Below are positions 43,392 through 64,000 of a stretch of 64,000 nt of DNA, one piece after another. Origin of the DNA: Hyphomicrobiales bacterium (GTDB lineage: Bacteria > Pseudomonadota > Alphaproteobacteria > Rhizobiales > Rhizobiaceae); assembly GCA_900467685.1 (NCBI GenBank), contig UBQX01000015.1:1-64000 (forward strand). Reading direction: 5' to 3'. The notes beneath the pieces were generated by a model, which ran no database searches, was not told the DNA's origin, and worked only from the letters and a program-made list of their open reading frames with translations. The position numbers and the translations under genes were made by a program. Every line of letters begins with the position of its first letter. Position 1 is the first letter of the stretch.

Positions 43392-43683
43392 CGTGTGTTC
43401 CTTGCGTCCGATATCCCTTTGGTATCATTCGCAAGGCCCACTTCATCAAACAGGTCTCAAAGCCCAGCGTTATACAAAATTCTCTCTGTAAGCGCCGAAG
43501 CGATGCCAACGAATTTGCTCCACGTACCAATCCAGGTGGCTTCAATCGTTTTTTGCGGTCCTCCTTTAATGAACTGACATTTGGCCCAAAATCTAAAATC
43601 ATGACCTATCTCACTCTTCCGCTTTAACCTGCACTCGGACACTCTTGGCTTCTGGGATCGAAATAGCCGGAGTGGAGGAGACT
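43392..43683. other. AT-richer gap before the BVMO fusion gene
   Basis: About 290 bp of lower GC content than its neighbours. Short frames on both strands resemble no family I know. It probably carries the promoter of the BVMO gene and may be residual DNA from the IS30-type insertion. GTGGAGGAG just before 43684 is the ribosome site of the next gene. Confidence 0.4.
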
Positions 43684-46191: not shown

Positions 46192-46278
46192 AACGTCCCG
46201 CGATGTGGGAGCATCGCCAATGCATCCCCGAACAGCACAAAAGACGCGTTCGGAACAATCAACGATAAAGGAGGGATC

Positions 46279-48933: not shown

Positions 48934-49073
48934 GCTGCAACAGACCTGACAGAGGCAATTGGCCTTGATCGTAAAGCAGCCGGCCTTACCTGTCATGGGG
49001 TGTCGGCAGTTCGACAGACTTTCGTGAGGAGAATGGACATGCCCGTAATGATCGAAGGCCGGAGTGATCTGCC

Positions 49074-50477: not shown

Positions 50478-50533
50478 AGGCACGGCGCTCTTTCGCCGCG
50501 CCACGCTGTAATCTCGCTTTCAGGAGTATCTTC

Positions 50534-51322
50534 ATGCAGAAAAGCCATCGCACCGCACTCGTCACCGGCGCGGGCTCCGGCATCGGACTTGCAACGGCTA
50601 AGCTGCTCGTCAAGGAGGGCTGGCAGGTCGCGATCGTGGATGTCAATGGCGAGGCAATCGAGCGCGCCGCCGCGGAGCTTGGTCCGCAGAGCTTGCCCTT
50701 CACCTGCGATCTTTCCGATGCCAAGGCGGTTGAAGCGCTGATGGAGGACCTCTCGACGCGCACGGGCGGACGGCTTGATCTCCTCGTCAACAATGCCGGA
50801 CTTCTATGGTCGGGGCATTTCAAGGACCAGCCGCCACAGAACATTGCGCGTATCACGACCGTCAACACGATCGCGCTGGCCATCTGCACGCGGCTCGCAT
50901 TCCCGCTTCTCAAGGCCAGCGCCGACGCGGGCGGAAAGCCGGTCGTGATCAACCTGTCATCCGCCTCGTCCGTCTTTGGAATTCCCAGTCTGGCAGTATA
51001 TTCCGCGTCGAAATTCTGGGTACACGGCTTTACCGAAGCGTTGGCTGTCGAATGGCGCGGGCAGGGCATTGCGGTACGCGACGTGGCTCCGCCCTTCGTC
51101 CACACACCTATGATGTCGGGACCTGCCGCTTCCAATCCGTTCCATGTTCGGATGGGCGCCAACCTGAGCCCGGAAGATGTCGCGCATGCAATTCTAGCGG
51201 CGCAGCGTGGCGGCCCCGTACATCGTTACATGACCGGCTCGCTCCAGCTGACCCGCTTTCTCGTGGCGCTCATGCCAAATGCGTGGACCCGCCGGGCCAT
51301 GGCAATGATCGGCGGTTATTGA
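50534..51322 (+). CDS. Short-chain dehydrogenase
   Basis: A 262-residue SDR: TALVTGAGSGIGLATAKLL cofactor loop, NNAG near 89-92, INLSSASSVFGIPSLAVYSASKFWVHGFTEAL with the Ser-Tyr-Lys active site, then PPFVHTPMM. The C-terminal hydrophobic part (FLVALMPNAWTRRAMAMIG) suggests membrane association. It could interconvert the alcohol and ketone feeding the BVMO. Last assigned gene of the 43.7-51.3 kb module. Confidence 0.87.
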   Translation: MQKSHRTALVTGAGSGIGLATAKLLVKEGWQVAIVDVNGEAIERAAAELGPQSLPFTCDLSDAKAVEALMEDLSTRTGGRLDLLVNNAGLLWSGHFKDQPPQNIARITTVNTIALAICTRLAFPLLKASADAGGKPVVINLSSASSVFGIPSLAVYSASKFWVHGFTEALAVEWRGQGIAVRDVAPPFVHTPMMSGPAASNPFHVRMGANLSPEDVAHAILAAQRGGPVHRYMTGSLQLTRFLVALMPNAWTRRAMAMIGGY

Positions 51323-51715: not shown

Positions 51716-53437
51716 TCAAATTGCGGCCTTGCTGCGGTGAGTTGTTCGCGATGCCGCAAGGCTCGTACTGATGAGCTCGGCAGCTCTTTCCAGAGCCACT
51801 CTTGGTGACCGGTTTCCCAGCAACGCATCGTGAATTTCCTGCCCGAGAACCTTCTCGATCATCGTATATTGCGGAATCTTCGGTCGCTGCCAGGTGTGTA
51901 GTAGATTCCTCTTTGCGAGTTGGTCCACGAAGCGCACGATCGGCGAACTGGCCGCAGCTTCCGGGTCAGCACTGACGGAAAATCGCGGAGCAACGGGAAA
52001 CCCGTTCTTTACATGCGCCTTCATGGCCTCACGGGAAGCCATCCACGCAATGGCGTCGGCTGCAAGCTCTACACGCTCATCGGGAAGATTTGTGGGAATG
52101 CAGAAAAGGAACCCGCCGATGGGGGAGGCCCGCGTGCCGCCGGGACCCGATGGTTGCGGCAGATATTCCACTCGACGTTTCACGACGGACTGCACGTCAT
52201 ATTCGAACCTCGCTGCGCGCATGGTCCAAAAATAGCCGAGACTCGCATTTCCCTTCATGAAGACGGAGAGCGTCTGGTCCCAAGCCATTTCAAGGATTTT
52301 CGGCGGCGAAATCTCCATCAGCCTGCGCATATAGTCCAGCGCAGCAAAACCCGCATCAGACAGGATCGTGCAACTCAATTGCTCGGGATCGAGACCATCA
52401 AGCGAAAATCCCGTGCGCGTTCTGGGCAGGGAAATCACCGGCTGGCCGCATGCACCCATGAAGAACAGGAAGCTTGACGCAATCGGCATGCCGCGGGCGC
52501 CATCCCATACTGCCCCGTAACGCCCGTCTGACGGCGCATGAAATTTGCGCCCCGAATTGATGACCTCATCGAAGGTCTTCGGAAACGAGAGGTTGGCGTC
52601 CTCGAACAGATCCTTGCGCGCCGCCAGAAACTCCACGGTACAATAACCCGGCACCCCGTAATCGCGGCCCTCCCAAGTGGCGGAGGCCCAGATGGAGGGA
52701 TGAAAGTCGAGGGGATTGATACCCATTTTCTGGATATACTGGTCGATGGGACGGACAAAACCGCTCTCGGCAAACTCGCCAAGCCAGGGCATGTTGATGG
52801 CGATCACATCGTAATCGGAAAAGGGTTTTGTTCCGTTCTCGCGGGCGCGCCGATAGAGTTCCGGCAGGGGTAGAAGATCGAAATTCTTGCGCGAAGCAAG
52901 ATTGCTTCGAAAATCCGCCCACATGTTTCGCATGGCCGAGAAGTAGTTGTCGTCATTCAGCAGAAACCGCAGTTCGATCTGCGATTCCACGCGCTTCTGA
53001 ACCAGACGCATCGGGGGGATGATTTGCGAACCGAGCGGTGTGCCGCCGAAATAATACTGGTCTTCACCCTCGCTGGCGCGCAGACCGAGCGTCTGCGCCA
53101 GGAGCGATTTTGTCTTCCGCGCATAGGTTTCGAAGGATCGAAGCAGATCCTCGCTCGGTTGCAGGGTGAAACTCTTACCCGTCGGCCCCTTGACCACTTT
53201 CAGAATGTGTCCGCTGTCGATCATGCGGTTGATGAGGCGCATGGCGGTCGCATAGGGCAGGCCCGATTCCTGACCCAGCGTCGAGATCGAGACGCTCTGG
53301 TTCAGGATGTGCGACTTTACGAGAAACGTGACAACGCGCCACACTGCGTCGTCGCCAGCTTCTTCGATCACCTCACGAAAAGGCCGTCGCGTCTTCTCGA
53401 TGAAGTCGATGACCCGCAAGATCTCGTATTCGTTCAC
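51716..53437 (-). CDS. Winged-helix / solute-binding-protein fusion regulator
   Basis: A 573-residue protein without a signal peptide. Residues about 30-90 form a winged-helix DNA-binding domain (FLVKSHILNQSVSISTLGQESGLPYATAMRLINRMIDSGHILKVVKG, like IclR/MarR turn and wing). From about 125 it reads as a family-1 extracellular solute-binding protein: DYDVIAINMPWLGEFAESGFVRPIDQYI, GYCTVEFLAARKDLFEDANLSFPKTFDEVI, and IGGFLFCIPTNLPDERVELAADAIAWMAS. A cytoplasmic sugar-binding fold joined to a DNA-binding domain is rare in this form. It is on the opposite strand from the 55-64 kb catabolic operon and most likely senses its substrate. Confidence 0.85.
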   Translation of the reverse strand: MNEYEILRVIDFIEKTRRPFREVIEEAGDDAVWRVVTFLVKSHILNQSVSISTLGQESGLPYATAMRLINRMIDSGHILKVVKGPTGKSFTLQPSEDLLRSFETYARKTKSLLAQTLGLRASEGEDQYYFGGTPLGSQIIPPMRLVQKRVESQIELRFLLNDDNYFSAMRNMWADFRSNLASRKNFDLLPLPELYRRARENGTKPFSDYDVIAINMPWLGEFAESGFVRPIDQYIQKMGINPLDFHPSIWASATWEGRDYGVPGYCTVEFLAARKDLFEDANLSFPKTFDEVINSGRKFHAPSDGRYGAVWDGARGMPIASSFLFFMGACGQPVISLPRTRTGFSLDGLDPEQLSCTILSDAGFAALDYMRRLMEISPPKILEMAWDQTLSVFMKGNASLGYFWTMRAARFEYDVQSVVKRRVEYLPQPSGPGGTRASPIGGFLFCIPTNLPDERVELAADAIAWMASREAMKAHVKNGFPVAPRFSVSADPEAAASSPIVRFVDQLAKRNLLHTWQRPKIPQYTMIEKVLGQEIHDALLGNRSPRVALERAAELISTSLAASRTTHRSKAAI

Positions 53438-53522
53438 GTGGGCCTCCCAACCGACGCTTCCTCCAGATATCCGCTCCGGGATGGTCCGCCCGTAACCCGA
53501 AGCATTTCATCACCGGATAAAG

Positions 53523-54449
53523 CTATACCGCCTTCAGACCCTTCACGGGAGGAGATTTTTCCCTGGTCAGCCCAGCCAGCCGTTCATATTGCTCGAAAAG
53601 GACGAAGAAGTCCTTGTCCGCCAGACCTTCCGCATACGCGGCCTCGTATTGCTGGCGGATCATCGATGCGAGATACATCGGCACATGGTCTGCCTTTGCC
53701 GCACCGAGAATAAGGTCGAAATCCTTCATCATCTGGGACACGGAAAAGGCCGGGTCGTAATTGCGATGGACCAGGAGATCGCGCTTGTAGGCGATCAGCG
53801 GCGAGGCGACAGCGCTTTCGCAAATCACGTTCAGCATCGTTTCGACACTGAGATTTCCCTTCAGACCCAGTGTTAGGGCCTCGCCGAGCAGGGCCGCCGT
53901 AGCGCCCACCAGAGCGTTGACCACCAGCTTGAGATAGCGTGCCTCCTCGCCGCCTCCGAGATAGAAGCGACGCGAAGAAAAGCTCTCGAGGATAGGCTCT
54001 ACACGACGATAGGCATCCTCCGGGCCGGACGCCATGACGGACAGCGTTCCCGACGAAGCAGTCACGGTGCTGCCGGAAACAGGCGCGCGGACATAGGCAA
54101 CGTTCCTGCGGGCAAGCGCCTCGGCCACCTCGGCAGAGATTTCGGGGGACACAGTGCTCATCTCCACCAGAACCTGTCCCGGTCGCATGATCTCCGCAAG
54201 AGTGCCAGGCGCAAGCGTCAGCTGTCTGAGCACCGCATCGTTCGGGATCGTCAGCATCACAACTTCGGATGCGTCGACAAGATCCGCCAGCGAATGGGCG
54301 ACATCGGCTCCTGCGGCAACGACAGATGCCCGGTTTTCCGGAAGAGGCTCGTAAACGGTAAGGCGAAAGCCCTTTTCCAGGACATGCCGGCTCATCGGCG
54401 CTCCCATCTTGCCTATGCCGGCCCATCCAACTCTCAAAGTATCTTGCAT
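53523..54449 (-). CDS. NAD-dependent beta-hydroxyacid dehydrogenase
   Basis: A 308-residue 6-phosphogluconate/3-hydroxyisobutyrate dehydrogenase-family enzyme: VGWAGIGKMGAPMSRHVLEKG cofactor loop (Ala for the first Gly-x-Gly position), MSTVSPEISAEVAEAL, RAPVSGSTVTASSGTLSVMASG substrate motif and KLVVNALVGATAALLGEALTLG with the catalytic Lys. Start after AAGGAAGG. It lies 85 bp upstream of the fusion regulator gene, same strand, probably one operon. Substrate: a beta-hydroxyacid, perhaps from the sugar-like compound. Confidence 0.88.
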   Translation of the reverse strand: MQDTLRVGWAGIGKMGAPMSRHVLEKGFRLTVYEPLPENRASVVAAGADVAHSLADLVDASEVVMLTIPNDAVLRQLTLAPGTLAEIMRPGQVLVEMSTVSPEISAEVAEALARRNVAYVRAPVSGSTVTASSGTLSVMASGPEDAYRRVEPILESFSSRRFYLGGGEEARYLKLVVNALVGATAALLGEALTLGLKGNLSVETMLNVICESAVASPLIAYKRDLLVHRNYDPAFSVSQMMKDFDLILGAAKADHVPMYLASMIRQQYEAAYAEGLADKDFFVLFEQYERLAGLTREKSPPVKGLKAV

Positions 54450-54955
54450 TTGAACCTTCCTTCCGAAACGGCGACCGACATCGGCGTCAAACACCACACT
54501 GTCATGGGGGAGATCGAGCTCACGTGAATGGATTTTCATGTGAGGTGCACGCACCGTTTCCTCCGGCTAAAACCTAGTGCTCGAAACCACGGCTATGCTT
54601 CATCAAAAATATCCATTTTGGATAATTAAGCATTTGTCCGGATGCGTCTTCGTGCCATAGCTTCAAAATCGGAATAGACGGAGGTTCCTTGGGAGGAATT
54701 CACGCTGTCTCTTGAATTTTTATCCCGGGCAAGAGTTTTCGTGCCCGGCGTGTTGTTGCAGACCAAAGCAACCTGACCGGATACCCGCGCGTATGGCTTG
54801 GCACTATACTCTCGGATCTTCCTGAAGGTTGGGAATATTCTGCAGGACCATAGTTGATATGCGTAGAATTCTGGTGCGCGTGGCGATGGGCGCAAAGCAT
54901 CTTCGAGTGTTTTGAGCAGCGCCTGAGGTACTTCTCCATGACGGAAGGCATGAAA
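54450..54955. promoter_or_regulatory. Divergent control region of the 51.7-64 kb cluster
   Basis: A 506-bp gap between the leftward dehydrogenase-regulator pair and the rightward catabolic operon. It includes TATCCA-TTT-TGGATA (54610-54624), a perfect 6-bp inverted repeat in AT-rich DNA, a candidate site for the fusion regulator. A minus-strand frame (54626-55129) runs into the neighbouring gene and lacks family resemblance, so it is not called. Confidence 0.45.
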
Positions 54956-56029
54956 ATGAAAGCGGTTAGATATTATTCGAAGAAAGATATCCGAGTTGAG
55001 GATGTGCCGGCACCGACCGGGCCCCTGGGCGATGATATGGTCCTGGTAGAACCGCTGGTCTGCGGTATCTGCGGGACAGACCTGCATGAATACATCGCGG
55101 GCCCGATCGTCACGCCGGCAACCCCGCACATCTATTCAGGCGCCGTGCTCCCCCAGATCCTCGGACATGAGTTTTCCGCAAGGGTCGTCGAGGTTGGCAA
55201 ATCCGTGACGCACGTCAAGCCGGGGTCGCGCGTCTCGATCCAGCCGCTGATTTCGCCGCGCGACGACTACTATGGCCGTCGCGGGCTGTTCCATCTGTCG
55301 GAGAAAATGGCCTGCGTGGGACTGTCCTGGGATTGGGGCGGCATGGGTGAGCAGGCTATCGTCAACGGCTACAATGTATTTCCCGTCCCTGATACCGTTT
55401 CCGACGTCCAGGCGGCGATGATCGAGCCTGCGGCCGTGGCGCTTTACGGCGTCGATCGCGGTGGTGTCACCAGTGGCAGCAGCGTGCTTGTTTCGGGCGT
55501 CGGTCCTATCGGCGCGCTGGTTCTCCTTGCTGCCAAGGCGGCCGGGGCAACGACCATCTTCGTTTCAGAACTCAATCCCAATCGGCGCGCGCTGGCCAAA
55601 CAGCTTGTGCCGGAAGCCATTGTCTTCGATCCGCGGGAGACTGACGCGCTGCAGCTTTTCCGCGACCATACCGAAGAGGGTGTCGGTCTTGATGTCGCTC
55701 TGGAATGCGTCGGCGCCGAAAGCTCGCTTAATCTCTGTGCCCAGGCAGTCCGCCGTCGCGGGACGGTGGTGCAGGTCGGCCTGCATATGAAGCCGGCTGC
55801 GGTGGACGCAATGCTGTGGGCGCTCAAGGATATCACCGTCGAGGCAACCTGGTGCTATCCGGTTCAGATCTGGCCACGCGTCGCATCGATGATTGGCGCG
55901 GGGATTTTCCCCGTCGAGAAAATCGTCACGGCGAAGATTTCACCTGACGACGTGGTCGCTCAGGGATTTGAGGCGCTGCTCGATCCGAAGGCAACGCATA
56001 TGAAGATTCTGGTCGACATGAAGGCCTGA
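54956..56029 (+). CDS. Zinc-type alcohol/polyol dehydrogenase lacking structural zinc
   Basis: A 357-residue medium-chain dehydrogenase of the butanediol/sorbitol dehydrogenase group. The catalytic zinc site is present (Cys39 in GICGTD, His71-Glu72 in LGHEF, Glu in MIEPAAVALYG). NAD loop SGVGPIGALVLLAAKAAGA. The structural zinc lobe, normally four cysteines, reads ISPRDDYYGRRGLFHLSEKMA with none of them, so that site is lost. Start 54956 has GGAAGG seven bases upstream. First gene of the rightward operon; it likely oxidises a vicinal hydroxyl. Confidence 0.85.
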   Translation: MKAVRYYSKKDIRVEDVPAPTGPLGDDMVLVEPLVCGICGTDLHEYIAGPIVTPATPHIYSGAVLPQILGHEFSARVVEVGKSVTHVKPGSRVSIQPLISPRDDYYGRRGLFHLSEKMACVGLSWDWGGMGEQAIVNGYNVFPVPDTVSDVQAAMIEPAAVALYGVDRGGVTSGSSVLVSGVGPIGALVLLAAKAAGATTIFVSELNPNRRALAKQLVPEAIVFDPRETDALQLFRDHTEEGVGLDVALECVGAESSLNLCAQAVRRRGTVVQVGLHMKPAAVDAMLWALKDITVEATWCYPVQIWPRVASMIGAGIFPVEKIVTAKISPDDVVAQGFEALLDPKATHMKILVDMKA

Positions 56030-56133
56030 CGGCCCGTCGCCATGCAAGTCACGAATGGTGGATGTGTCACGAAGGTAAGCGCCTGCCGCGCTGTCCTTGG
56101 TCGCTTCACTGCGTCAATCGAAAGGAGTTCCGC

Positions 56134-56418
56134 ATGCACTACGTCGTTCATTGCCTCGATCACGAGGGCGCCGTCGAAAAGCGATTGGCAAATTATGAGG
56201 CTCACAAGGCCTATCTCGGCTCGGGCAAGACCAAAACCGTGATCTCGGGGCCTCTGCTGGCCGATGACAACACGACGATGATCGGATCGCTTTTCGTCTT
56301 CGACGCGGAGACCAAGGAAGAAATCGTTGCCTTCAACAGGGAAGACCCCTTCACGAAGGCCGGCGTCTGGAAAACCGTGAACATTCATCCCTTCAACAAG
56401 CGGGTAGACAACCGATGA
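56134..56418 (+). CDS. YciI-family protein (copy 1)
   Basis: A 94-residue single-domain YciI protein: HYVVHCLDHEGAVEKRLANYEAHKAYL, VISGPLLADDNTTMIGSLFVFDA and FNREDPFTKAGVWKTVNIHPF. The His in EAHKAYL and Asp in REDPF are the paired polar residues of the family. TftG of the 2,4,5-T pathway, a YciI protein next to hydroxyquinol dioxygenase and maleylacetate reductase genes, removes chloride from 5-chlorohydroxyquinol. A similar elimination or dehydration role is possible here. ATG overlaps nothing upstream; its stop overlaps the next start (ATGA). Confidence 0.8.
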   Translation: MHYVVHCLDHEGAVEKRLANYEAHKAYLGSGKTKTVISGPLLADDNTTMIGSLFVFDAETKEEIVAFNREDPFTKAGVWKTVNIHPFNKRVDNR

Positions 56419-57425
56419 CAACGATCGACAAGCCCGTCTCAGCGGCCATCATTGGGCTTGGCTGGTGGGGACGCAAGATGGTGACGCTGGTCAATGCGGG
56501 CGGCGCCGATATGAAATTCGTCCGCGGCGTCGACCCAAGCGCCGAGGCGGCAGCCTTTGCAAGCGAAAAGGGCCTCAAGTTTTCGTCCGATATGGCCGAG
56601 GCACTCGCCGATCCCGAAATCGAGGCTGTCGTGCTGGCGACGCCGCATTCGCTGCATCGTGAGCAGATCGAGCAGGCCGTTGCCGCTGGCAAGCATGTCT
56701 TTTGCGAAAAGCCCCTCGACCTGACGAAGGCCGGCGCAGAGGCATCCGTCAATCTCTGCCGCCAGGCCGGTCTGGTTCTCGGCATGGGACACGAGCGTCG
56801 TTTTGAGCCGCCCATTGCCGAAATCCTGCAGGCCGCCGCGGACGGTCGGCTGGGAAGGCTGCTACAGATCGAATCCAATTTCAGCCACGACAAATTCCTG
56901 GCGCTTGATCCGTCCAACTGGCGGCTGAAAGCGGACCAGGCTCCGGCAGGCGGCATGACCGCAACGGGGATCCACCTGACCGACCTTGCCGTAAAGCTCA
57001 TGGGGCGCCCGATCGATGTGCGGGTTGCATGCGAAAATCTCGCTTCAGCCATCCCCCAGGGGGATACGATGAGCGCGCATATTCGATTTGAGAACGGCGG
57101 CACCGCTTACGTGTCCGCAACGCTCTCCACGCCCTTCATCTCGCGATTTGCCGTCTTTGGGACAAACGGCTGGATCGAGGTTCGGGACAAGGCCCATGTC
57201 GAAGCCCCGGAAGGCTGGGTTGTCACGGAAGGGTGGAAGAACCAGCGCATCACCGTGCGCGAAGTGGAGCCGGCCGAACCGGTGCGCGACAACCTGCGCG
57301 CATTTGCCCATGCCGTGCGGGGCAAGTCCGAATATCCGATTTCCGGTGAGGACATGATCAACAACATTGCGCTGCTGGAAGCGATCGTCAGGTCGGCAAA
57401 AACCGGCGCTCTGGAAAAGATTTGA
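56415..57425 (+). CDS. Gfo/Idh/MocA-family oxidoreductase
   Basis: A 336-residue NAD(P)-dependent sugar/cyclitol oxidoreductase: AAIIGLGWWGRKMVTLV nucleotide loop, ATPHSLHREQIEQAVAAGKHVFCEKPL with the EKP motif, and GGMTATGIHLTDLAVKLMG with the catalytic His (Asp of the usual DxGxH is Thr). The family oxidises inositols, sugars and glycosides, often at C2 or C3. Coupled to the YciI gene by a 4-bp overlap and followed 10 bp later by a second zinc-type dehydrogenase. Confidence 0.87.
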   Translation: MTTIDKPVSAAIIGLGWWGRKMVTLVNAGGADMKFVRGVDPSAEAAAFASEKGLKFSSDMAEALADPEIEAVVLATPHSLHREQIEQAVAAGKHVFCEKPLDLTKAGAEASVNLCRQAGLVLGMGHERRFEPPIAEILQAAADGRLGRLLQIESNFSHDKFLALDPSNWRLKADQAPAGGMTATGIHLTDLAVKLMGRPIDVRVACENLASAIPQGDTMSAHIRFENGGTAYVSATLSTPFISRFAVFGTNGWIEVRDKAHVEAPEGWVVTEGWKNQRITVREVEPAEPVRDNLRAFAHAVRGKSEYPISGEDMINNIALLEAIVRSAKTGALEKI

Positions 57426-57435
57426 GGAGGATCCC

Positions 57436-58419
57436 GTGAAGGCTCTTGTATTCGAAGCCCCTGAAAGGCCCGTCATTGTCGATGCGCCGATGCCGGATCT
57501 GTCGCCCAATGACGTTCTTGTGCAGACCAAGGCCGTAGGCATCTGCCATTCCGACTACGAACTTCTGGCAGGCCGCTATATCATCCCGATTTCGTATCCG
57601 GTCACACCGGGGCATGAATGGTGCGGCGAGATCGTCGAGGTCGGTCGCAATGTGACCGGGTTCAGGAAGGGCGATCGCGTCGTTGGCGAATGCGTGGTGA
57701 GAACACCCGAGAGGCTGCACCATTTCGGCTTTTCCATGAGTGGCGCAGATCGTGAATTCTTCGCCGTCAATCCCGAGTGGCTGCACAAGCTGCCCGACGC
57801 GGTCGACAACAAGAAGGCTGCGCTGATCGAACCCTTCACCTGTGGGTACTATGCAGTCATGCGCTCCGGTGGAACCAATGCAAGCGAGACCGTCGTCGTC
57901 TCCGGTGGCGGGACGATCGGCCTCGTCTCGGCGGCAGCGGCAATCGGAATGGGCGCTCGCGTCATCGTTGTCGATCCGCTCGCCTCACGCCGCGAGGTGG
58001 CACTCAAGCTCGGCGCGGATGCTGTCATCGATCCGACGGATGGGGGCGCAACCGACCGTGTTCGCGAGTTGACCGGCGGGCATGGTGCGGATCTCGTGGT
58101 CGAAGCGTCCGGCCATGACGCCTCCCTGGCTGCAGCGTTCGACTACGCACGCGAGGAAGGCCGCATGTCGATGGTTGGCATCAATATCGGCCGCAAGGTT
58201 CCGGTCGTGATCGGCCAGATCCAGATGAAGAACCTGACGGTTCGCGGCTGCATCGGTTCTCCCGGCGTATGGCCCTCCGCCATTCGCTTCCTGGAGCGCA
58301 CCGGCATCAACCTCGCGCCCATCCAGACACACGACTTCGCTTTGACCGATGCGGTCAGCGCCTTCTCGTTCGGACAGGATCCGACCAAAAGCATCAAGAT
58401 TACTCTACTCAACGGATAA
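57436..58419 (+). CDS. Zinc-type dehydrogenase (second copy, short zinc lobe)
   Basis: A 327-residue medium-chain dehydrogenase, GTG start after GAGGAGG. Catalytic residues are visible as CHSDYE (Cys38), GHEWCGE (His-Glu) and IEPFTCGYYAV. NAD loop SGGGTIGLVSAAAAIG. As in the gene at 54956 the structural zinc cysteines are absent and the lobe is shortened (ECVVRTPERLHHFGFSMSG). Two different enzymes of this type in one operon imply two hydroxyl oxidations or an oxidation and a reduction. Confidence 0.85.
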   Translation: MKALVFEAPERPVIVDAPMPDLSPNDVLVQTKAVGICHSDYELLAGRYIIPISYPVTPGHEWCGEIVEVGRNVTGFRKGDRVVGECVVRTPERLHHFGFSMSGADREFFAVNPEWLHKLPDAVDNKKAALIEPFTCGYYAVMRSGGTNASETVVVSGGGTIGLVSAAAAIGMGARVIVVDPLASRREVALKLGADAVIDPTDGGATDRVRELTGGHGADLVVEASGHDASLAAAFDYAREEGRMSMVGINIGRKVPVVIGQIQMKNLTVRGCIGSPGVWPSAIRFLERTGINLAPIQTHDFALTDAVSAFSFGQDPTKSIKITLLNG

Positions 58420-58422
58420 AAA

Positions 58423-59481
58423 ATGGCAAATCAGGCACTTATCGTCGGCGCGACCGGCATTACCGGGAGCAATCTGGCAGAGCACCTGCTCTCTCTCGGC
58501 GGCTGGGACGTGCTGGGGCTGTCGCGCTCGCAAAGCCGCATTCCGGGCGTGAAGACGCTCGGTTGCGACCTGACGGACGCAGCATCCGTCAAGACTGCAA
58601 TTGGCGATGCGCGTCCGACACATGTCTTCATCACGGCTTGGTCGCGTCAGGACACCGAAGCGCAGAACTGCATCGTCAACGGTGCCATCGTGCGCAATGT
58701 GCTGGACGCGCTCGCAGGACGCGGCGTCAAGCACGTAGCTCTCACCACCGGGACAAAACATTATCTTGGCCCCTTCGAGTCCTATGCAAAGACACAGCCC
58801 GAGACGCCATTCCGGGAAGAGCAGGAAAGACTTCCAGGAGAAAACTTCTACTACGTGCAGGAGGATGAAGTTTTTGCGGCGGCAGCGCGTGATGGCTTCA
58901 CATGGTCCATCCACCGCCCGCACACCCTGATCGGCTATGCGGTCGGCAATGCCATGAATATGGCAGCGACCCTCGCCGTCTATGCGACCATCTGCAAGGA
59001 AACGGGTCGTGACTTCGTCTTTCCAGGATCGCCGCAACAGTGGCAGGCTGCAACAGACGTAACCGATGTCCGCGTTCTGGCGCATCACCTGGCATGGGCA
59101 GCAACCCATAAGGAAGCAGCCAATCTCGCATTCAATGTGGTGAACGGCGAGATTTTCCGCTGGAAGTGGCTGTGGCCTCGACTTGCAGCCTATTTCGGGC
59201 TCGAAGCTGCTGCCTATCCCGGCACCCCGAACACCCTGGAAGACCAGATGAAGGACGCGTCCGATATCTGGGACGGCATCGTGCAGACGCATGGGCTTCA
59301 GCCGAACAAGCTTTCCCACGTTGCATCCTTCTGGCACTCCGACGCCGATCTCGGGCGCCAGATCGAAACTTTCAACGACATGGGGCGGAGCCGCAAGCTG
59401 GGCTTCATGGAATATCAGGAAACACTTCAGTCCTTTACGGATGCGTTCGACCGTCTTCGGGCGGATCGGATCATTCCCTGA
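58423..59481 (+). CDS. PRISE-type enone reductase (SDR)
   Basis: A 352-residue atypical SDR: ALIVGATGITGSNLAEHL cofactor loop, TGTKHYLGPF at 109-118 and NFYYVQED at 141-148, the hallmark of progesterone 5-beta-reductase/iridoid synthase (PRISE) enzymes, which replace the usual YxxxK with a Lys and a Tyr in these two motifs. They reduce the double bond of enones, often in cyclic compounds. Its place just before a hydroxyquinol dioxygenase suggests a cyclohexenone-type intermediate. Start 3 bp after the previous stop. Confidence 0.85.
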   Translation: MANQALIVGATGITGSNLAEHLLSLGGWDVLGLSRSQSRIPGVKTLGCDLTDAASVKTAIGDARPTHVFITAWSRQDTEAQNCIVNGAIVRNVLDALAGRGVKHVALTTGTKHYLGPFESYAKTQPETPFREEQERLPGENFYYVQEDEVFAAAARDGFTWSIHRPHTLIGYAVGNAMNMAATLAVYATICKETGRDFVFPGSPQQWQAATDVTDVRVLAHHLAWAATHKEAANLAFNVVNGEIFRWKWLWPRLAAYFGLEAAAYPGTPNTLEDQMKDASDIWDGIVQTHGLQPNKLSHVASFWHSDADLGRQIETFNDMGRSRKLGFMEYQETLQSFTDAFDRLRADRIIP

Positions 59482-59498
59482 CGACAAGGAGAGTGCAG

Positions 59499-60380
59499 AT
59501 GACTGGCACTGAACGACGTGGCGGTGATGTAACGGGCTACTTCACGGAGCAGAATTCCGTGGAGACCGTCAACGGACGGACAGGACCCAACGCCGATCCT
59601 CGCCTTGCCCACGTCATGGCAAGCCTGGTCCGGCATCTGCACAACTTTGTTCGCGAGGTCGAGCTGACACAGGACGAATGGGAAATCGGCATCGATTTTC
59701 TCACCCGCACTGGTCAGATTTGCACGCATGAACGCCAGGAATTCATCCTCCTGTCGGATACGCTCGGCGTCTCGATGCTGGTGGACGCCATCAACAACCG
59801 GCGTACCCCGCCCGCGACGGAAAACACCGTCTTCGGTCCATTTCACGTCGAGGGATGTCCGGTGCGGCAGATGGGCGACTCCATCTGCCTCGACGGAAAG
59901 GGAGAAACCTGCCTCTTTGCAGGACGTGTGACGGATCTCGACGGAAAGCCGATATCCGGAGCACGAATAGATGTCTGGTCCGACAATGCGGACGGATATT
60001 ACGACGTCCAGCAGCCTGGCATCCAGCCGCAGTGGAACAACCGCGGCGTCTTCGTCACGGGTGACGACGGCCAATACAGTTTCGTCGGCATCAAGCCGGT
60101 CTCCTATCCGATTCCGGATGACGGTCCCGTTGGGGCCATGCTGGCGGGGTTGGACCGGCATCCCTACCGGCCTGCACATATGCACTACATGGTTCGTGCC
60201 GAAGGGTTCCAGAAACTGGTCACGCACACATTCGTCGGCGGAGACAAATATCTCGAATCCGACGCGGTCTTCGGCGTCAAGCAGACGCTGGTCGCGCCCT
60301 TTACCAAACTGGATGGGGAGAAGACCGAATGGCGCTCGGACTATGACTTTGTTCTCATGCCTGCGCGCCAAAAGCGATAG
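59499..60380 (+). CDS. Hydroxyquinol 1,2-dioxygenase (copy 3)
   Basis: A 293-residue intradiol dioxygenase like copy 2 across its length (TQDEWEIGIDFLTRTGQICTHERQEFILLSDTLGVSMLVDAINN). Metal ligands are Tyr in DGYYDVQQ, Tyr in SYPIPDDGP and the His pair in RPAHMHYMV. Two differences in the active-site loop stand out: DVWSDNADGYY in place of DVWQANDEGFY and QPQWNNRG in place of QPDFNLRG. These may widen or shift substrate choice. It is followed 9 bp later by maleylacetate reductase. Confidence 0.9.
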   Translation: MTGTERRGGDVTGYFTEQNSVETVNGRTGPNADPRLAHVMASLVRHLHNFVREVELTQDEWEIGIDFLTRTGQICTHERQEFILLSDTLGVSMLVDAINNRRTPPATENTVFGPFHVEGCPVRQMGDSICLDGKGETCLFAGRVTDLDGKPISGARIDVWSDNADGYYDVQQPGIQPQWNNRGVFVTGDDGQYSFVGIKPVSYPIPDDGPVGAMLAGLDRHPYRPAHMHYMVRAEGFQKLVTHTFVGGDKYLESDAVFGVKQTLVAPFTKLDGEKTEWRSDYDFVLMPARQKR

Positions 60381-60389
60381 GGGTCTGCC

Positions 60390-61445
60390 TTGGACAATTT
60401 TATTTTCAATTCCAATCCCGGACGCGTCTTGTTCGGAAGCGGGACCGTCGCACGGCTCCCCGACGAGGCGGCTCGACTGAATGGCGAACGTGTCCTCGTC
60501 CTGTCGACGCCCGAGCAGGCCGATCTCGCGTCAAGCGTCGCCGGATATCTTGGCAATCGGGTCGCTTCGGTTTTCTCGAATGCCCAGATGCATACGCCGG
60601 TCGAGGTGACCCGCGAAGCCATGCGCATTGTCGATGAGGTTCGGGCCGACCTGATTGTTTCAGTCGGTGGCGGCTCGACAACCGGCCTCGGCAAGGCAAT
60701 CGCATTTCGCACCGACCTGCCCCAAATCGTGGTTCCAACGACCTATGCAGGCTCGGAGGCGACACCGATCCTGGGTGAAACGGACGCCGGCCGAAAGACG
60801 ACAAAATCGGATCCGCGGATCCTGCCGGAAGTCATCGTCTATGATGTCGACCTGACCCTCAGCCTGCCGGTTTCGATGTCCGTTACAAGCGGGATCAATG
60901 CAATCGCGCATGCCGTGGAGGCGCTTTACGCACGCGACGCCAACCCGATCATTTCCATGATGGCGGAAGAGGCGATAACCTCGATCGCGCGGGGCCTTCC
61001 GCGCGTTGCTGCAAACGCTCAGGACCGAGAGGCGAGGGCGCAAGTTCTTTATGGTGCGTGGCTATGCGGCGTGTCCCTCGGATCGGTCGGCATGGCACTG
61101 CATCACAAGCTTTGCCATACGCTCGGCGGAATGTTCAATCTGCCGCATGCGGCGATGCATACGGCCATCCTGCCCCATGCACTGCGCTACAATGCCGATG
61201 CCGCTCCTGCTGCGGTGGCGCGCGTGAGCCGCGCCCTTGGCTTCGATGACGCGCCGAAGGGACTTTTCAATTTCGCGAAGGGACTGGGAGCGACCATGTC
61301 GCTCAAGTCTCTTGGCATGCCGGAGGGTGGTATCGAGGCCGCCGTGAAGGAGGCAATGGCCAACGCCTACTGGAACCCCAGGCCGCTCGAAAAGGGCCCG
61401 CTGACAAAGCTTCTGGAACTGGCGTGGGCGGGCGAAGCCCCGTGA
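60390..61445 (+). CDS. Maleylacetate reductase (copy 2)
   Basis: A 351-residue enzyme clearly paralogous to the one at 34667: VSVGGGSTTGLGKAIAFRTDLPQIVVPTTYAGSEATPILGET, GMALHHKLCHTLGGMFNLPHAAMHTAILPH, and NAYWNPRPLEKG. It starts with TTG (60390) after an AGGGG site. With the dioxygenase just upstream it converts hydroxyquinol to beta-ketoadipate. Confidence 0.9.
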   Translation: MDNFIFNSNPGRVLFGSGTVARLPDEAARLNGERVLVLSTPEQADLASSVAGYLGNRVASVFSNAQMHTPVEVTREAMRIVDEVRADLIVSVGGGSTTGLGKAIAFRTDLPQIVVPTTYAGSEATPILGETDAGRKTTKSDPRILPEVIVYDVDLTLSLPVSMSVTSGINAIAHAVEALYARDANPIISMMAEEAITSIARGLPRVAANAQDREARAQVLYGAWLCGVSLGSVGMALHHKLCHTLGGMFNLPHAAMHTAILPHALRYNADAAPAAVARVSRALGFDDAPKGLFNFAKGLGATMSLKSLGMPEGGIEAAVKEAMANAYWNPRPLEKGPLTKLLELAWAGEAP

Positions 61446-61483
61446 GGTGCAGCTCCCACATTCCGGACCGCAACCTCACTTAG

Positions 61484-61503
61484 AAAAGCATAGAAATGCT
61501 TTT
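61484..61503 (+). terminator. Terminator-like hairpin after maleylacetate reductase copy 2
   Basis: AAAAGCA (61484-61490), loop TAGAAA, TGCTTTT (61497-61503), followed by A-rich DNA. The 61446-61647 gap is strikingly AT-rich; nothing else is supported in it. Confidence 0.5.
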
Positions 61504-61647
61504 AAAAACAAAGGCTTTTCAAAAAGTCCAAAATGAATATTTCTCCGGTTTTATTTGAAAAAATACGGCTCTAACATCAAAAATTGAAAGAAAGCAAAAC
61601 GGCAGATCGGACAATAAATAACGACATAAAACAGGGAGAGAAATGAA

Positions 61648-61938
61648 ATGATTGCGGTTCGCTTCGCGATTAGCAATCCGGAAAAATCATCGGAAAGAGA
61701 AACTTATTTCGAAGACCATAAGAAATATCTCCGATCCAGTGGTTTTGACATCATTCACTCCGGACCTCTTCTTGAAGAGACAGGAAGCGGTCAAGGCGCT
61801 TTAGTTGTCGCCAAAGTCGTTAATCTTGAAGATATGCGTCGTTTTAGCGAAAATGACCCCTTTGTCCGGAACGGTGTTTATGGGGTCGTCAAAATCTATG
61901 AGTGGACGCCGACGATAGGCTCGCTGGCGTCCTTCTGA
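61648..61938 (+). CDS. YciI-family protein (copy 2, AT-rich)
   Basis: A 96-residue YciI protein (SSERETYFEDHKKYLRSSGFDIIHSGPLLEETGSG; FSENDPFVRNGVYGVVKIYEW). The family His and Asp are in FEDHKKYL and ENDPF. RBS GGGAGAG precedes the ATG; an ATG five bases earlier stops at once. Codon use (many AAA, TTT, GAA) is clearly less GC-rich than in flanking genes, suggesting separate acquisition. It may act as a dehydratase or dehydrochlorinase like TftG. Confidence 0.75.
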   Translation: MIAVRFAISNPEKSSERETYFEDHKKYLRSSGFDIIHSGPLLEETGSGQGALVVAKVVNLEDMRRFSENDPFVRNGVYGVVKIYEWTPTIGSLASF

Positions 61939-62231
61939 ACCGACAAGCGGTTTGCCGCACAGGCGCTCTATCTGGGAGGAGGAGCAAATGAAACACCGAT
62001 TTGCCGTTCGCCCGAACGCGCTCCGCATGCACGGCTGTGCTGCAACACCCTATTCGACGTCCATTCTTGCCATCCGGAACGTCTGTTGGATCGCGTCCGA
62101 CGTGACGCGTCGCACGGCTGTCAGATCGCGTCCTGGTGCCGTCTCGTTGCGGCATGCGGCGCGAGCGGCGGGGGTCGGCGCGCACCAAGTGGTAGCCGAT
62201 ATGGTGTCTGAAAAGGCGGGGATTTGAACGA
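61939..62231. other. Gap with a possible ABC ATPase relic
   Basis: 293 bp where a ribose-type importer usually has its ATPase gene. One frame reads VARLSDRVLV near 62104-62135, similar to the LSDRVLVM segment just past the H-loop of RbsA-type ATPases, but it is bounded by stops and the rest is lost. A different frame (61988-62227, 79 residues, preceded by GGGAGGAGGAG) is open but unrecognised. The importer ATPase may be downstream of the window. Confidence 0.3.
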
Positions 62232-63224
62232 ATGGCCAACGGGGTATCCATGCTCGACAATATGCAAACCAACGGTGTGCGTTTGCCGGTGGCACTTGCG
62301 CGCAGCTTCGTGACCGTGTCGCTCTCGACATTGCTCCTGCTGGCGGTCTGCGCGTTTTACGCGCCATCGAGTGTATCATGGGGTGCTCTGTCCGGCAGCC
62401 TCCCATTTGCAGCGATCATCGCCATTGTCGGCCTGGGGCAGCTGTTGGTGGTCCAGCAGGGTGGTGTCGACCTTTCGCTTCCCGGCGCTGTATCGCTGGC
62501 TGTGGTGGTGGCGACGCATTATCCGCAGCAACAGAACGAACTCCTGTGGCAGGCGGTGCTGGTGGCGGCCGGCTTCGCAGTCGCGGCAGGCCTTCTCAAC
62601 GGCGTGCTCGTCAGCATCTTCAAGCTCAATGCGATTATCGCCACGATCGGTACGAACGCCCTGCTTTACAGCGGTGTGTTTGCAGTATCCGGCGGTGTCC
62701 CATCCATTACCACCCCGCTCCTGGCCGATATTGCCGGAGGCACGACGGCGGGGTTGCCGCACTCGGTCTACTTCGCGACCGCTCTGATGCTGCTGGTTGC
62801 TTTCGTTCTGAAGAAGACCGTGATCGGACGCCGTTTTGAAGCAATCGGCGCCAGCCCTCTGGCAGGGCGCGCGGCTGGCCTGCGGGTTCGACTGCATCAG
62901 GTGATGGCCTATGTGCTGGCGCAGCTTCTGTATTGCGTGGCAGGCATCCTCATTGCCGGGATCACACGCGAACCCACCGCATTCCAGGGTGACAGCCTGC
63001 TTTTGCCATCGGTCGCTGTGGTCGTTCTAGGCGGTACATCCTTGCTCGGCGGGCGCGGTTTCCCGGTTTCGACCGTGGTCGCTGCCTTTTTCCTGAACCA
63101 GCTGAGCCAGTTCGCGCTCGCTGTCGGCGTGCCGTTTTCGGCACAAACCATCATCCAGGCCTTGGCTTTGGGCTTCGGCATTGGCGTGTATTCGATCCGC
63201 TGGAGGATCGGAAGCGGAAAATAG
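62232..63224 (+). CDS. Sugar-type ABC importer permease (RbsC family)
   Basis: A 330-residue membrane protein: VGLGQLLVVQQGGVDLSLPGAVSLAVVVA (the RbsC/XylH signature region), LLNGVLVSIFKLNAIIATIGTNALLYSG, RRFEAIGASPLAGRAAGLRV and AVVVLGGTSLLGGRG. This family imports ribose, inositol and related sugars or polyols, not organic acids. It belongs with the binding protein 28 bp downstream. An internal ATG at 62250 is an alternative start. Confidence 0.88.
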   Translation: MANGVSMLDNMQTNGVRLPVALARSFVTVSLSTLLLLAVCAFYAPSSVSWGALSGSLPFAAIIAIVGLGQLLVVQQGGVDLSLPGAVSLAVVVATHYPQQQNELLWQAVLVAAGFAVAAGLLNGVLVSIFKLNAIIATIGTNALLYSGVFAVSGGVPSITTPLLADIAGGTTAGLPHSVYFATALMLLVAFVLKKTVIGRRFEAIGASPLAGRAAGLRVRLHQVMAYVLAQLLYCVAGILIAGITREPTAFQGDSLLLPSVAVVVLGGTSLLGGRGFPVSTVVAAFFLNQLSQFALAVGVPFSAQTIIQALALGFGIGVYSIRWRIGSGK

Positions 63225-63252
63225 TCATCATTTAAACTGTGGAGGACAGAAA

Positions 63253-64000
63253 ATGAAACATTCGACACTCGCTAAAGGTATGGCGCTGTCGGTCGCGGCA
63301 CTTGCCATGTCCGTCGGCTTTGGATCAGTGGCCAAGGCTGAGGTACCGTCTTGGTGCGGACCCAAGAAGGCCACGCTGGCGCTGCTCGACGGCTACGGCG
63401 GCAACAGCTGGCGCCAGGTCACCACGGCATCCGGCAAACAGACGATCGAACTGTGCCCGAGCATCACGAAGTACGAGTACGCCGATGGCCAGGGCGATAC
63501 GCAAAAGTCCATTTCGGATATCAAGAGCATGGCCGCCAAGGGCATCGACGCGCTTGTCGTTTTTGGCGATGCGGGTCCCGCAGTCCTTCCGGCCATTACC
63601 AGCGCATTCAAGGCTGGCAAGGTCGTCGTGCCGTACCGAGTGAATGTGGGTGGCAAGGAAGGCGTGAACTATTCGAAATTCATCGGTTCCTCCTTCGAAA
63701 ATGACGGCGAAACCTGGGGCAAATGGATCAAGACAAACCTGCCGAAGGGCGGGAACATCCTGTTCCTCAGCGGCCCCGCCGGCAACAGCCAGGGTATTGA
63801 CGAACTCAAGGGCATGAAGAAGGTCCTTGGCAAGGAATATGTCTTCGTGAACCCGGAGCCATTTGGCGTGACCAACTGGGACCCGGCGCTGACGCAGAAG
63901 GTTCTGACGGCCGAGATCGCGAAGAATGCGAAGATCGACGTGATCGTCTCGGATTTCGGTCCCTCGCTGGTCGGCGCCCTGCCGCAGTTTACCAAGCAGG
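63253..64000 (+). CDS. Sugar-type ABC substrate-binding protein (partial)
   Basis: The gene runs off the window after 249 residues. A signal peptide (STLAKGMALSVAALAMSVGF, cleavage near AKA) is followed by a periplasmic-binding fold of the ribose/inositol class: TLALLDGYGGNSWRQVTTASG, GDTQKSISDIKSMAAKGIDALVVFGDAG, FENDGETWGKWIKTNLPKGGNILFLSGP. GGAGGACAG precedes the ATG. The ligand is probably the cluster's starting compound, a sugar- or cyclitol-like molecule. Confidence 0.88.
   Translation, partial: MKHSTLAKGMALSVAALAMSVGFGSVAKAEVPSWCGPKKATLALLDGYGGNSWRQVTTASGKQTIELCPSITKYEYADGQGDTQKSISDIKSMAAKGIDALVVFGDAGPAVLPAITSAFKAGKVVVPYRVNVGGKEGVNYSKFIGSSFENDGETWGKWIKTNLPKGGNILFLSGPAGNSQGIDELKGMKKVLGKEYVFVNPEPFGVTNWDPALTQKVLTAEIAKNAKIDVIVSDFGPSLVGALPQFTKQ

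Follow-up and report, generated by a model that had tools for sequence, protein, structure and literature searches.

What does a bacterium gain from a set of genes that places a sugar-type importer next to the enzymes of hydroxyquinol cleavage? This question is raised by one end of a 64,000-nucleotide stretch of Hyphomicrobiales DNA (GCA_900467685.1, contig UBQX01000015.1, positions 1 to 64,000; hereafter the window). Our results indicate that the block found there is a conserved, probably co-regulated set that couples a carbohydrate-class importer to hydroxyquinol cleavage. The cluster, which belongs to root-associated and marine bacteria, appears to import a sugar-like ring compound, make hydroxyquinol from it and degrade this for energy. 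More specifically, we give even chances to its being a regulon for sugar-like carbocyclic polyols that are aromatised to hydroxyquinol and then cleaved.

The block comprises 13 genes and extends from 51716 to contig position C25:66909, past the window end. Profile searches confirmed the original prediction that an importer, a Gfo/Idh/MocA dehydrogenase, two zinc-type dehydrogenases, a PRISE reductase, two YciI proteins, a dioxygenase and a maleylacetate reductase lie in one block and belong to the families stated. The reverse strand carries the regulator gene (51716..53437), whose product joins a putative winged-helix-like N-terminus to an SBP_bac_1 (sugar-binding-protein) domain, and a gene that was absent from that prediction, which profile matches assign to the 3-hydroxyisobutyrate-dehydrogenase family of oxidoreductases (53523..54554, probable start 54449). 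The divergent promoter region contains a candidate operator, the palindrome AATATCCATTTTGGATAA (54608..54625). On the forward strand follow the zinc-type dehydrogenase ADH1 (54854..56029; orthologues propose a start at 54938), 2,3-butanediol-dehydrogenase-like according to the annotation of relatives, and the TftG-like YciI1 (56134..56418), the 3' end of which overlaps the start of the Gfo/Idh/MocA gene (56415..57425). Next are the Tdh/IolM-like zinc-type dehydrogenase ADH2 (57436..58419, a start proposed from orthologues within an ORF from 57367), the PRISE-family reductase (58423..59481), a type A intradiol hydroxyquinol 1,2-dioxygenase (59499..60380) and the maleylacetate reductase (60390..61445). 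A second, weaker operator-like site (61524..61541) precedes YciI2 (61648..61938) and the importer genes, which within the window are also on the forward strand. The importer consists of a permease (62232..63224; BPD_transp_2, 4e-22), a binding protein (63253..64000, on to C25:64320; queries with binding proteins started one residue past Met) and, beyond the window, a fused ATPase-permease of 859 aa that completes it (C25:64330-66909). The Peripla_BP_4 binding protein, two-domain ATPase and BPD_transp_2 permeases place this importer in the CUT2 class.

The dioxygenase has an intradiol fold (PF00775, 5e-41) and a catechol dioxygenase N-terminus (PF04444, 2e-32). Its nearest solved structures are 8r2x, named '6-chlorohydroxyquinol-1,2-dioxygenase' (1e-137), and 1tmx (6e-76), and on this basis it is predicted to act on hydroxyquinol and not on catechol. 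The maleylacetate reductase is nearest to 3jzd (3.8e-115), named iron-containing alcohol dehydrogenase, and to 3w5s (1.5e-112) and 3hl0 (2.5e-111), both named maleylacetate reductase; the nearest structures of PRISE and YciI1 are 5mlm (2e-76) and 4lbh, which is TftG (1.5e-12). Gfo, ADH1 and ADH2 score far under the NCBIfam equivalog cut-offs (IolG profile, 124 bits vs. 355; IolM, 155 and 166 vs. 450). Structures related to Gfo include sugar oxidoreductases and DgpA-type proteins, and the binding proteins resemble ribose-, polyol- and other sugar-type proteins in general. Active sites were compared as aligned columns over distinct rows above set identity limits, with the window included, for eight enzymes, at residues assigned as catalytic on the basis of their families. 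In these alignments, all eight enzymes retain the residues. Invariant columns were the Tyr, Tyr, His and His iron ligands of the dioxygenase (40/40 rows, aligned to 1tmx), Lys, His and Asp of Gfo (40/40), the zinc ligands of ADH1 (44/44) and ADH2 (39/39), Lys and Tyr of PRISE (95/95), two His of the maleylacetate reductase (33/33), the catalytic columns of YciI2 (18/18), and His and Asp of YciI1 (39/39), a dyad that together with the YciI fold marks YciI1 as TftG-type.

Conservation was followed in two sets of loci: S1, with 14 loci found via the Gfo/Idh/MocA gene alone among 394 genomes of the host's family, and S2, with 22 loci from a PRISE-chosen search (PRISE at least 76% identical). Because the catabolic set is present in 22/22 S2 loci and most S1 loci, the grouping goes beyond chance; a chance neighbourhood is ruled out by this conservation, the overlapping genes and the shared palindrome. 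Orthologous clusters without the dioxygenase-reductase pair had been named in advance as evidence against the prediction, a pattern that was not seen, as the same 11 of the 14 S1 loci have both genes. The 3-hydroxyisobutyrate-dehydrogenase-like gene is likewise widespread (22/22 S2 and 11/14 S1 loci). Locus G685 has the regulator, YciI1-Gfo, dioxygenase and reductase and lacks both zinc enzymes, and G790 has YciI1-Gfo only, the remainder of the set being absent. The enone reductase had been counted as part of the set, which holds for seven S1 clusters but not for the other seven; in G021, PRISE is located elsewhere in the genome. Its role as the cluster-defining enzyme is thus weakened, since the first locus set was itself PRISE-chosen. 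PRISE genes stand alone on a Pantoea plasmid and a Microvirga plasmid. Among nine other PRISE loci listed, a CUT2-type importer lies beside PRISE in just three (L059, a Rhizobium MAG, L061 and L073), and the dioxygenase is absent from all nine, these three included. Variant L147 carries an old-yellow-enzyme-type reductase.

The sugar-binding fold predicted for the regulator was recovered as an SBP_bac_1 domain (1.3e-25). Its N-terminus matched IclR and MarR helix-turn-helix models (E 0.0017 and 0.0043, both below cut-off), and its AF2 model has a mean pLDDT of 38.8, with only residues about 31-110 reaching 58-83. Of 40 homologous regions, 36 contain the AATATCCATTTTGGATAA palindrome with at least 13/18 positions matching (two entries duplicate a single locus); in the other four (L122, L152, L158, L164) it is weak or absent. 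The site at 61524..61541, which was kept out of matrix building, scores 18.9 bits, compared with an expectation of 0.05 sites of at least 15 bits per 64 kb. Among the loci listed that have an importer of the same type as the window, 22 of 23 carry a second site upstream of YciI2 or the permease, and palindrome sites also precede ApbA-type genes (four loci) and another CUT2 binding protein (two loci). Scanning the window's own whole genome with up to two mismatches gave 17 matches, one of them exact, vs. 11 for the reversed control; therefore, no further regulon members are claimed. A 23.3-bit site lies at 63504, inside the binding-protein coding sequence, and L069 has a 20-bit site although no regulator homologue was seen there. 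A regulator paralogue in Agrobacterium adjoins Gfo/Idh/MocA and sugar isomerase-type genes.

A YciI-type elimination, as in TftG, had been part of the original prediction. YciI1, which resembles TftG, is the likely enzyme for it, but its substrate may be hydroxyquinol or hydroxybenzoquinone. YciI1 accompanies the dioxygenase in all 13 plasmid loci read (picked from 43 records), nine of which have a carbohydrate-class ABC importer. From the four loci that combine the two genes without such an importer (L181, L182, L184, L186), it follows that hydroxyquinol or the corresponding quinone, and not a polyol, may be what YciI1 acts on. TftG itself acts on chlorohydroxyquinol, an activity also given in the 4lbh entry name. 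For YciI2 the proposal is weakened: it is closest to the YciI encoded in a resorcinol operon (45% identity; YciI1, 29%), a likeness that speaks against a second dehydratase, and YciI2 need not take part in aromatisation.

In L150 and L151, two CoA-transferase-type genes and a thiolase gene lie between dioxygenase and reductase; the L150 thiolase is PcaF (680 bits vs. a cut-off of 597), the two other L150 genes match CoA_trans, and the L151 assignment is via likeness to the L150 genes (87 and 90%). The window's own genome has PcaF above cut-off on another contig. When L050 is compared with L043, the dioxygenases are 54% identical, as against 89% for Gfo, 91% for ADH2, 93% for PRISE, 93% for ADH1 and 91% for the regulator, and the dioxygenase gene was displaced in place, with the genes around it keeping an identity of about 90%. 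In two of the 14 S1 loci (G571 and G684), genes for an M24 protein and E1/E2 (2-oxoacid dehydrogenase) replace the dioxygenase-reductase pair, whereas ADH1, Gfo and ADH2 (each 71-74% identical) are retained alongside a CUT2 importer. To the best of our knowledge, neither M24 proteins nor E1/E2 complexes open aromatic rings. The exchange points to a branch-point compound that is still an alicyclic ketone, which in turn favours a carbocyclic polyol as the substrate rather than an aryl glycoside. Of these two substrates offered by the original prediction, the polyol has gained from the exchange, and the glycoside has lost ground, as the annotation of four clusters, whose gene tables are incomplete, shows no glycosidase (nor any sugar kinase or flavin ring hydroxylase). 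Three sister clusters (Shinella, R. leguminosarum and Agrobacterium) each contain one AP_endonuc_2 TIM barrel with QuiC as its best NCBIfam match (E 8.6e-15, 3.8e-12 and 3.8e-13; far below cut-off). Quinate/shikimate-type genes occur within the fetched stretch of four clusters (L046, G756, L158, L183).

In the route that we propose, one or several carbocyclic polyols, of the deoxy-inositol/quercitol class or inositols, would be taken up through CUT2 ABC importers. The nicotinamide-dependent Gfo/Idh/MocA enzyme and the two zinc enzymes, joined in many relatives by an SDR, would yield keto-cyclitols through oxidations whose order we infer. These would then lose water, a step for which YciI1 is the likely elimination enzyme, to give hydroxyquinol (1,2,4-trihydroxybenzene); arithmetically, quercitol C6H12O5 - 2H - 2H2O = C6H6O3. 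Counting against the polyol route, we know of no family in the block that dehydrates keto-cyclitols. The dioxygenase would open the ring to maleylacetate, the reductase would convert this to 3-oxoadipate, and CoA transfer followed by PcaF would finish the degradation. The regulator would sense the polyol or a keto intermediate through its binding-protein domain and would bind the palindrome upstream of both operons. It is tentative, and in our view rather doubtful, that one polyol pathway has two exits, namely O2-dependent dioxygenase cleavage of hydroxyquinol made intracellularly from a deoxy-inositol-class polyol, and oxygen-independent opening of an alicyclic ketone by the M24 protein, followed by the 2-oxoacid dehydrogenase complex.

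Other explanations must be weighed against the polyol route. YciI1, dioxygenase and reductase could be a portable module for (substituted) hydroxyquinol, with the dehydrogenases and importer serving a substrate that yields hydroxyquinol by other chemistry, e.g., cyclisation of an acyclic keto-sugar or loss of a substituent. The pairing of YciI1 with the dioxygenase in all 13 loci read, amid several different upstream gene sets, agrees with this, as do the chlorohydroxyquinol named for TftG, the best solved relative of YciI1, and the name of the dioxygenase's nearest chain; left unexplained are the same front end running with M24 and E1/E2 and the QuiC-like TIM barrels of the sister clusters, and we consider this explanation unlikely, if a serious one. 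An imported aryl glycoside whose sugar is oxidised by Gfo/Idh/MocA, so that elimination frees hydroxyquinol for cleavage, is improbable. Such sugar oxidation has a precedent in C-glycoside 3-oxidation, and the DgpA-type and sugar oxidoreductase structures related to Gfo, as well as the setting of the Agrobacterium regulator paralogue, would suit it. However, besides the missing glycosidase annotation in the four clusters, the sugar half would require genes of its own, the M24 and E1/E2 module would need to handle an aromatic aglycone, and hydroxyquinol glycosides are not, to our knowledge, common plant products.

Still less probable is a route that starts from an aromatic, for instance phloroglucinol, and leads through reduction by PRISE and dehydration by YciI1 to hydroxyquinol, as reportedly happens in catechin breakdown in Bradyrhizobium. 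The invariant PRISE Lys and Tyr and the reductase of L147 are in keeping with it, but half of the S1 loci do without PRISE, most loci carry carbohydrate-class importers, and no ring hydroxylase was found in the block, whereas one is present in the strain 3841 resorcinol operon. Finally, the dioxygenase and YciI2 both resemble their counterparts in that operon, so that the lower module has had a history of its own, which could mean that two unrelated operons merely lie side by side; given the recurrence of the set in S2 and most S1 loci, the overlapping genes and the palindrome that also precedes the importer, we regard this as very improbable indeed.

Cyclitols are plentiful in plants and plant soils, and the only well-known cyclitol routes that we are aware of are those of inositol and quinate/shikimate. 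A polyol-to-aromatic pathway, if true, would connect the uptake of sugar-type compounds with the beta-ketoadipate route and assign a function to TftG-like YciI proteins and to the PRISE proteins of bacteria, and its enzymes could serve to produce 1,2,4-trihydroxybenzene from polyols of renewable origin. Together with the palindrome, the regulator family provides a handle for finding the substrate, also in the clusters with M24 and 2-oxoacid dehydrogenase genes. In line with the prediction that the set matches no known pathway, no description of the cluster or route was found among the papers listed from an open-licence library. Pinitol is described as the component with the highest concentration in the root exudate of Mimosa pudica (PMC5789663), and a passage search of that paper gave no match for maleylacetate, hydroxyquinol or intradiol.

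Several known systems share parts of the block. The gamma-resorcylate/resorcinol operon (tsd/gra type) on pRL12 of Rhizobium johnstonii 3841 shares the maleylacetate reductase, the dioxygenase (73%) and the YciI close to YciI2. In that operon, genes for a gamma-resorcylate decarboxylase and a flavin monooxygenase come first, and an aromatic-acid MFS transporter is nearby, whereas the window block combines a carbohydrate importer with five dehydrogenase/reductase genes and, with neither a resorcinol hydroxylase nor a decarboxylase among its ORFs, is not of the gamma-resorcylate/resorcinol type. The route from quinate/shikimate to protocatechuate follows the same logic, in which a carbocyclic polyol is oxidised, dehydrated to an aromatic and cleaved by an intradiol enzyme. 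It uses other dehydrogenases, while the window has CUT2 import and hydroxyquinol as its proposed product; homologues of QuiC, the 3-dehydroshikimate dehydratase, are weak and confined to the sister clusters, with none among the window cluster genes. Bacterial inositol catabolism (IolG, IolE, IolD; IolM in Thermotoga) also uses CUT2-class import, and the window shares weakly matching IolG- and IolM-family dehydrogenases (the IolG equivalog cut-off is missed). In contrast, no IolE, IolD, IolB or IolC was seen in the block, which ends in aromatic ring cleavage. TftG, the 5-chlorohydroxyquinol dehydrochlorinase of the 2,4,5-T pathway, belongs like YciI1 to the YciI family, with His and Asp aligned, and by analogy the proposed route would also feed hydroxyquinol cleavage through an elimination, although the block is without a chlorophenol monooxygenase. 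The regulator may share its architecture with SgrR, a helix-turn-helix regulator with a solute-binding-protein domain, but differs in its SBP_bac_1 domain, its operator and its target genes.

The 13-gene block that begins with the regulator gene (a SBP_bac_1-domain protein, 51716-53437, minus strand) very likely encodes a catabolic pathway that ends in hydroxyquinol, is conserved and probably co-regulated, and appears not to have been described before. The original observation of this block was confirmed by domain assignments and by conservation. Eleven complete genes and the beginning of a twelfth (the binding protein) lie between 51716 and the end of the window; the thirteenth, a fused ATPase-permease, lies beyond it on the contig (C25; 80655 bases, with the same coordinates as the window) and ends at C25:66909. 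The genome comprises 5.05 Mb in 43 contigs. We note that the importer ATPase is an 859-aa fusion (L003:14331-16910, i.e., C25:64330-66909) with two ABC matches and a permease domain, and that the fused protein aligns across equal length in relatives with importers of the window's type.

The predicted families of the block genes were borne out by Pfam and NCBIfam, which also revealed a 3-hydroxyisobutyrate-dehydrogenase-like gene absent from the original list. The solved sequences closest to the dioxygenase and the reductase were a hydroxyquinol-type dioxygenase and a maleylacetate reductase, and on this likeness the predicted lower pathway is clearly assignable. TftG was closest to YciI1 (the YciI protein at 56134) and progesterone 5-beta-reductase to PRISE, the enone-type reductase. 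The NCBIfam models IolG, IolM and Tdh matched the Gfo/Idh/MocA dehydrogenase (Gfo) and the two zinc-type dehydrogenases (ADH1 and ADH2), all far under their cut-offs, so the substrates of these three enzymes are unreadable from family. Neither the cluster nor a polyol-to-hydroxyquinol breakdown was found described among the titles and abstract openings listed from an open-licence library, which is weak evidence of novelty. The genes at 43645-51322 look unrelated to the block; named by eye, they include an 848-aa FAD monooxygenase-like protein fused to an alpha/beta hydrolase, a GMC oxidoreductase, an AraC-type regulator, an aldehyde dehydrogenase and an SDR. AT skew was strong at 8001-10000 (+0.239) and 38001-40000 (-0.201), the remaining 2-kb windows being ~0.1 or less from zero.

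A single scan of GTDB genomes with PRISE returned 75 loci. The cluster was present in all 22 loci whose PRISE reached 76% identity, and these are without exception rhizobial; below 76%, the dioxygenase occurred in no locus, including that of a Rhizobium MAG (L059, 59%). Counted with adjoining stretches added for six loci, Gfo, YciI1, the dioxygenase, ADH1, ADH2, the regulator and the 3-hydroxyisobutyrate-dehydrogenase-like gene were each found in 22/22. The reductase was in the cluster in 17/22, and the other five genomes all carry one elsewhere (52-58% identity). The importer was of the window's type in 16 loci and of another CUT2 type in 6. In L059 (646-11703), PRISE accompanies a CUT2-type importer and an SDR and, named by eye, a hydroxyacyl-CoA-type dehydrogenase, a beta-keto acid cleavage enzyme and two SMP-30 lactonases, possibly another ring-compound pathway.

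The presence of PRISE in this set is a consequence of how the loci were selected. Because of this bias, Gfo was used to search 394 genomes from the host's family, the Rhizobiaceae; 14 gave a match with an E-value no higher than 1e-90, the window's genome among them. The dioxygenase-reductase pair, expected of orthologous clusters, was found in 11 of the 14, both genes in the identical 11. YciI1, ADH1 and the 3-hydroxyisobutyrate-dehydrogenase-like gene were present in 11 each, ADH2 in 12, and the regulator in 8, a count in which the stretches of genomes G756, G514, G789, G585 and G735 stop at or before its expected place. PRISE, part of the gene set originally read as one block, was found in only 7/14 loci. 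YciI1 is missing from only one of the dioxygenase loci, G585, whose 4.8-kb contig starts within Gfo, and G685 has the dioxygenase, reductase, YciI1-Gfo and regulator but neither of the zinc enzymes. Three Gfo loci were without the dioxygenase: G571 and G684, with M24 and E1/E2 genes, and G790, where YciI1-Gfo adjoins amidohydrolase-like and CobW-like genes and other cluster genes were not found within the 20 kb compared. YciI-Gfo or YciI-dioxygenase units adjoin related amidohydrolases in L152, L153, L147 and L184 (39-42% identical to the L147 one), with a CobW-like gene too in L152 and L153.

The dioxygenases of most clusters fall into two types, ~54% identical to each other. Those of L122, L150, L151 and the Loktanella locus L158 share 66% and 61-64% identity with the two main types, and that of L154 is closest to the Aminobacter one (71%). 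Between loci L050 and L043, Gfo, ADH2, PRISE, ADH1, the regulator and the 3-hydroxyisobutyrate-dehydrogenase-like protein share 89-93% identity and the dioxygenases only 54%, a difference that shows a dioxygenase swapped in place among near relatives. The four iron ligands were retained in 40/40 distinct dioxygenase rows. It seems that this slot requires the activity irrespective of the gene source. Two clusters carry genes for the remaining steps of the predicted lower pathway: in G643 and G735, an opposite-strand LysR-type gene, two CoA-transferase-type genes and a thiolase lie between dioxygenase and reductase. NCBIfam identifies the G643 thiolase as PcaF (680 bits vs. a cut-off of 597), and both CoA-transferase-type genes match CoA_trans; the G735 genes were assigned from their similarity to those of G643. 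A PcaF of the window's own genome (683 bits) is encoded on a different contig.

With regard to regulation, the 18-mer AATATCCATTTTGGATAA at 54608 is by far the best conserved part of the divergent region that adjoins the 3-hydroxyisobutyrate-dehydrogenase-like gene, with a mean best match of 15.5/18 over 40 regions, compared with 10.9 (s.d. 0.27) for shuffled 18-mers. It is an imperfect palindrome with at least 13 matches in 36/40 regions, as far as Aminobacter, and with 11 or 12 in L122, L152 and L158 and 9 in L164; since L111/L120 and L150/L156 are each one locus entered twice, the count becomes 34/38. A matrix built on these sites located a second site at 61524, ahead of YciI2 (the YciI protein at 61648) and the importer, and the window holds 3 sites of at least 15 bits against 0.05 expected per 64 kb (20 block shuffles). 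The third (63504-63521, 23.3 bits) lies within the coding sequence of the binding-protein gene and could either reflect constraint on the protein or be a genuine operator there; similar matches occur within this gene in L035, L039, L108, L110 and L120. A site precedes YciI2 or the permease in 22 of the 23 listed loci with the window's importer type; L122 has none of at least 16 bits there, and outside this listing the palindrome search gave none there in L158. Sites also lie 112-415 bases ahead of ApbA-type genes (L035, L036, L097, L108) and ~100 bases ahead of another CUT2 binding protein (L038, L101), and similar palindromes adjoin regulator paralogues in Phaeobacter and Agrobacterium. We infer that the regulator binds the palindromes.

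Several observations favour a carbocyclic substrate. Hydroxyquinol has three oxygens, and the annotation of four clusters, whose gene tables are incomplete, shows no ring hydroxylase within them; a small protein of the Loktanella cluster is annotated as 'putative quinol monooxygenase'. In three sister clusters (Shinella, R. leguminosarum, Agrobacterium), the NCBIfam model that fits the TIM barrel best, though weakly, is QuiC, a 3-dehydroshikimate dehydratase and thus an aromatising enzyme. Genes of the quinate/shikimate type are found close to the cluster in L046, G756 (a QuiC-type protein below its cut-off and a shikimate dehydrogenase), Loktanella and Paraburkholderia (L183, dehydroquinate dehydratase only), and are a hint only because type II dehydroquinate dehydratase also occurs in four cluster-less loci. 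By mass balance, one oxidation and two dehydrations turn a cyclohexanepentol into hydroxyquinol, and a polyol of this type may follow that course here. The sequence relatives of the binding proteins indicated no particular substrate. Overall, we give a carbocyclic polyol an even chance of being the substrate.

The end of the pathway appears exchangeable. In G571 and G684, the cluster's ADH1, Gfo and ADH2 have orthologues (71-74%), the importer is of the second CUT2 type and the regulator is 53-54% identical, and E1-beta, E2, E1-alpha and an M24 protein occupy the place of dioxygenase and reductase (for G684, the domains of E1-alpha, E2 and M24 were confirmed). Their E1-beta is 74-75% identical to a Terrabacter protein, and their M24 proteins are 97% identical to each other. 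A reductase is encoded at another place in the G571 genome; none was found in that of G684 (85% complete). M24 and E1-beta also occur with an importer, PRISE, ADH1 and ADH2 in one Terrabacter and one Acidothermus MAG. In Phaeobacter, genes with Xaa-Pro peptidase and E1/E2/E3 annotations adjoin a paralogue of the regulator and an ABC importer for sugars. Both ends occurred together in none of the Gfo-found loci. We know of no aromatic-ring opening by M24 or E1/E2 proteins. The simplest reading would be that a shared front end yields an alicyclic ketone with two exits, aromatised and then cleaved with oxygen in one lineage and opened without oxygen in the other. Across Rhizobiaceae, Phaeobacter and Actinobacteria (L123, L124, L155, L161 and L164), M24 (DddP/Xaa-Pro type) and E1/E2 2-oxoacid dehydrogenase genes lie near carbohydrate ABC importers; L123 and L124 add an EboE-type protein that scores above its NCBIfam cut-off.

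A plasmid search gave 43 records with YciI1 relatives, of which 13 annotated ones, chosen to span hosts and identities, were examined (L108, L109, L158, L159, L160, L162 and L180-L186). The dioxygenase stands alongside YciI1 in 13/13, the reductase in 11 (not in the Shinella and Bosea stretches) and a carbohydrate-class ABC importer in 9; the 4 loci without this importer leave room for YciI1 acting on hydroxyquinol itself. The genes upstream vary between Gfo with zinc enzymes and two SDRs with a TIM barrel; in Paraburkholderia they are ADH1-type (56%), 3-hydroxyisobutyrate-dehydrogenase-type (46%) and PRISE (56%), and in Cupriavidus a GMC oxidoreductase and an amidohydrolase. For the YciI-type elimination originally proposed, the context of YciI1 fits a putative elimination step, whereas YciI2 looks like an accessory of an ordinary hydroxyquinol operon. 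The resorcinol operon of R. johnstonii 3841 (L177:10116-15148, gamma-resorcylate/resorcinol) has a terminal YciI gene that is 45% identical to YciI2 and 29% to YciI1. Given the varied dehydrogenase sets around YciI1 and the other YciI type in this known operon, YciI1 thus marks hydroxyquinol produced by dehydrogenase-rich routes.
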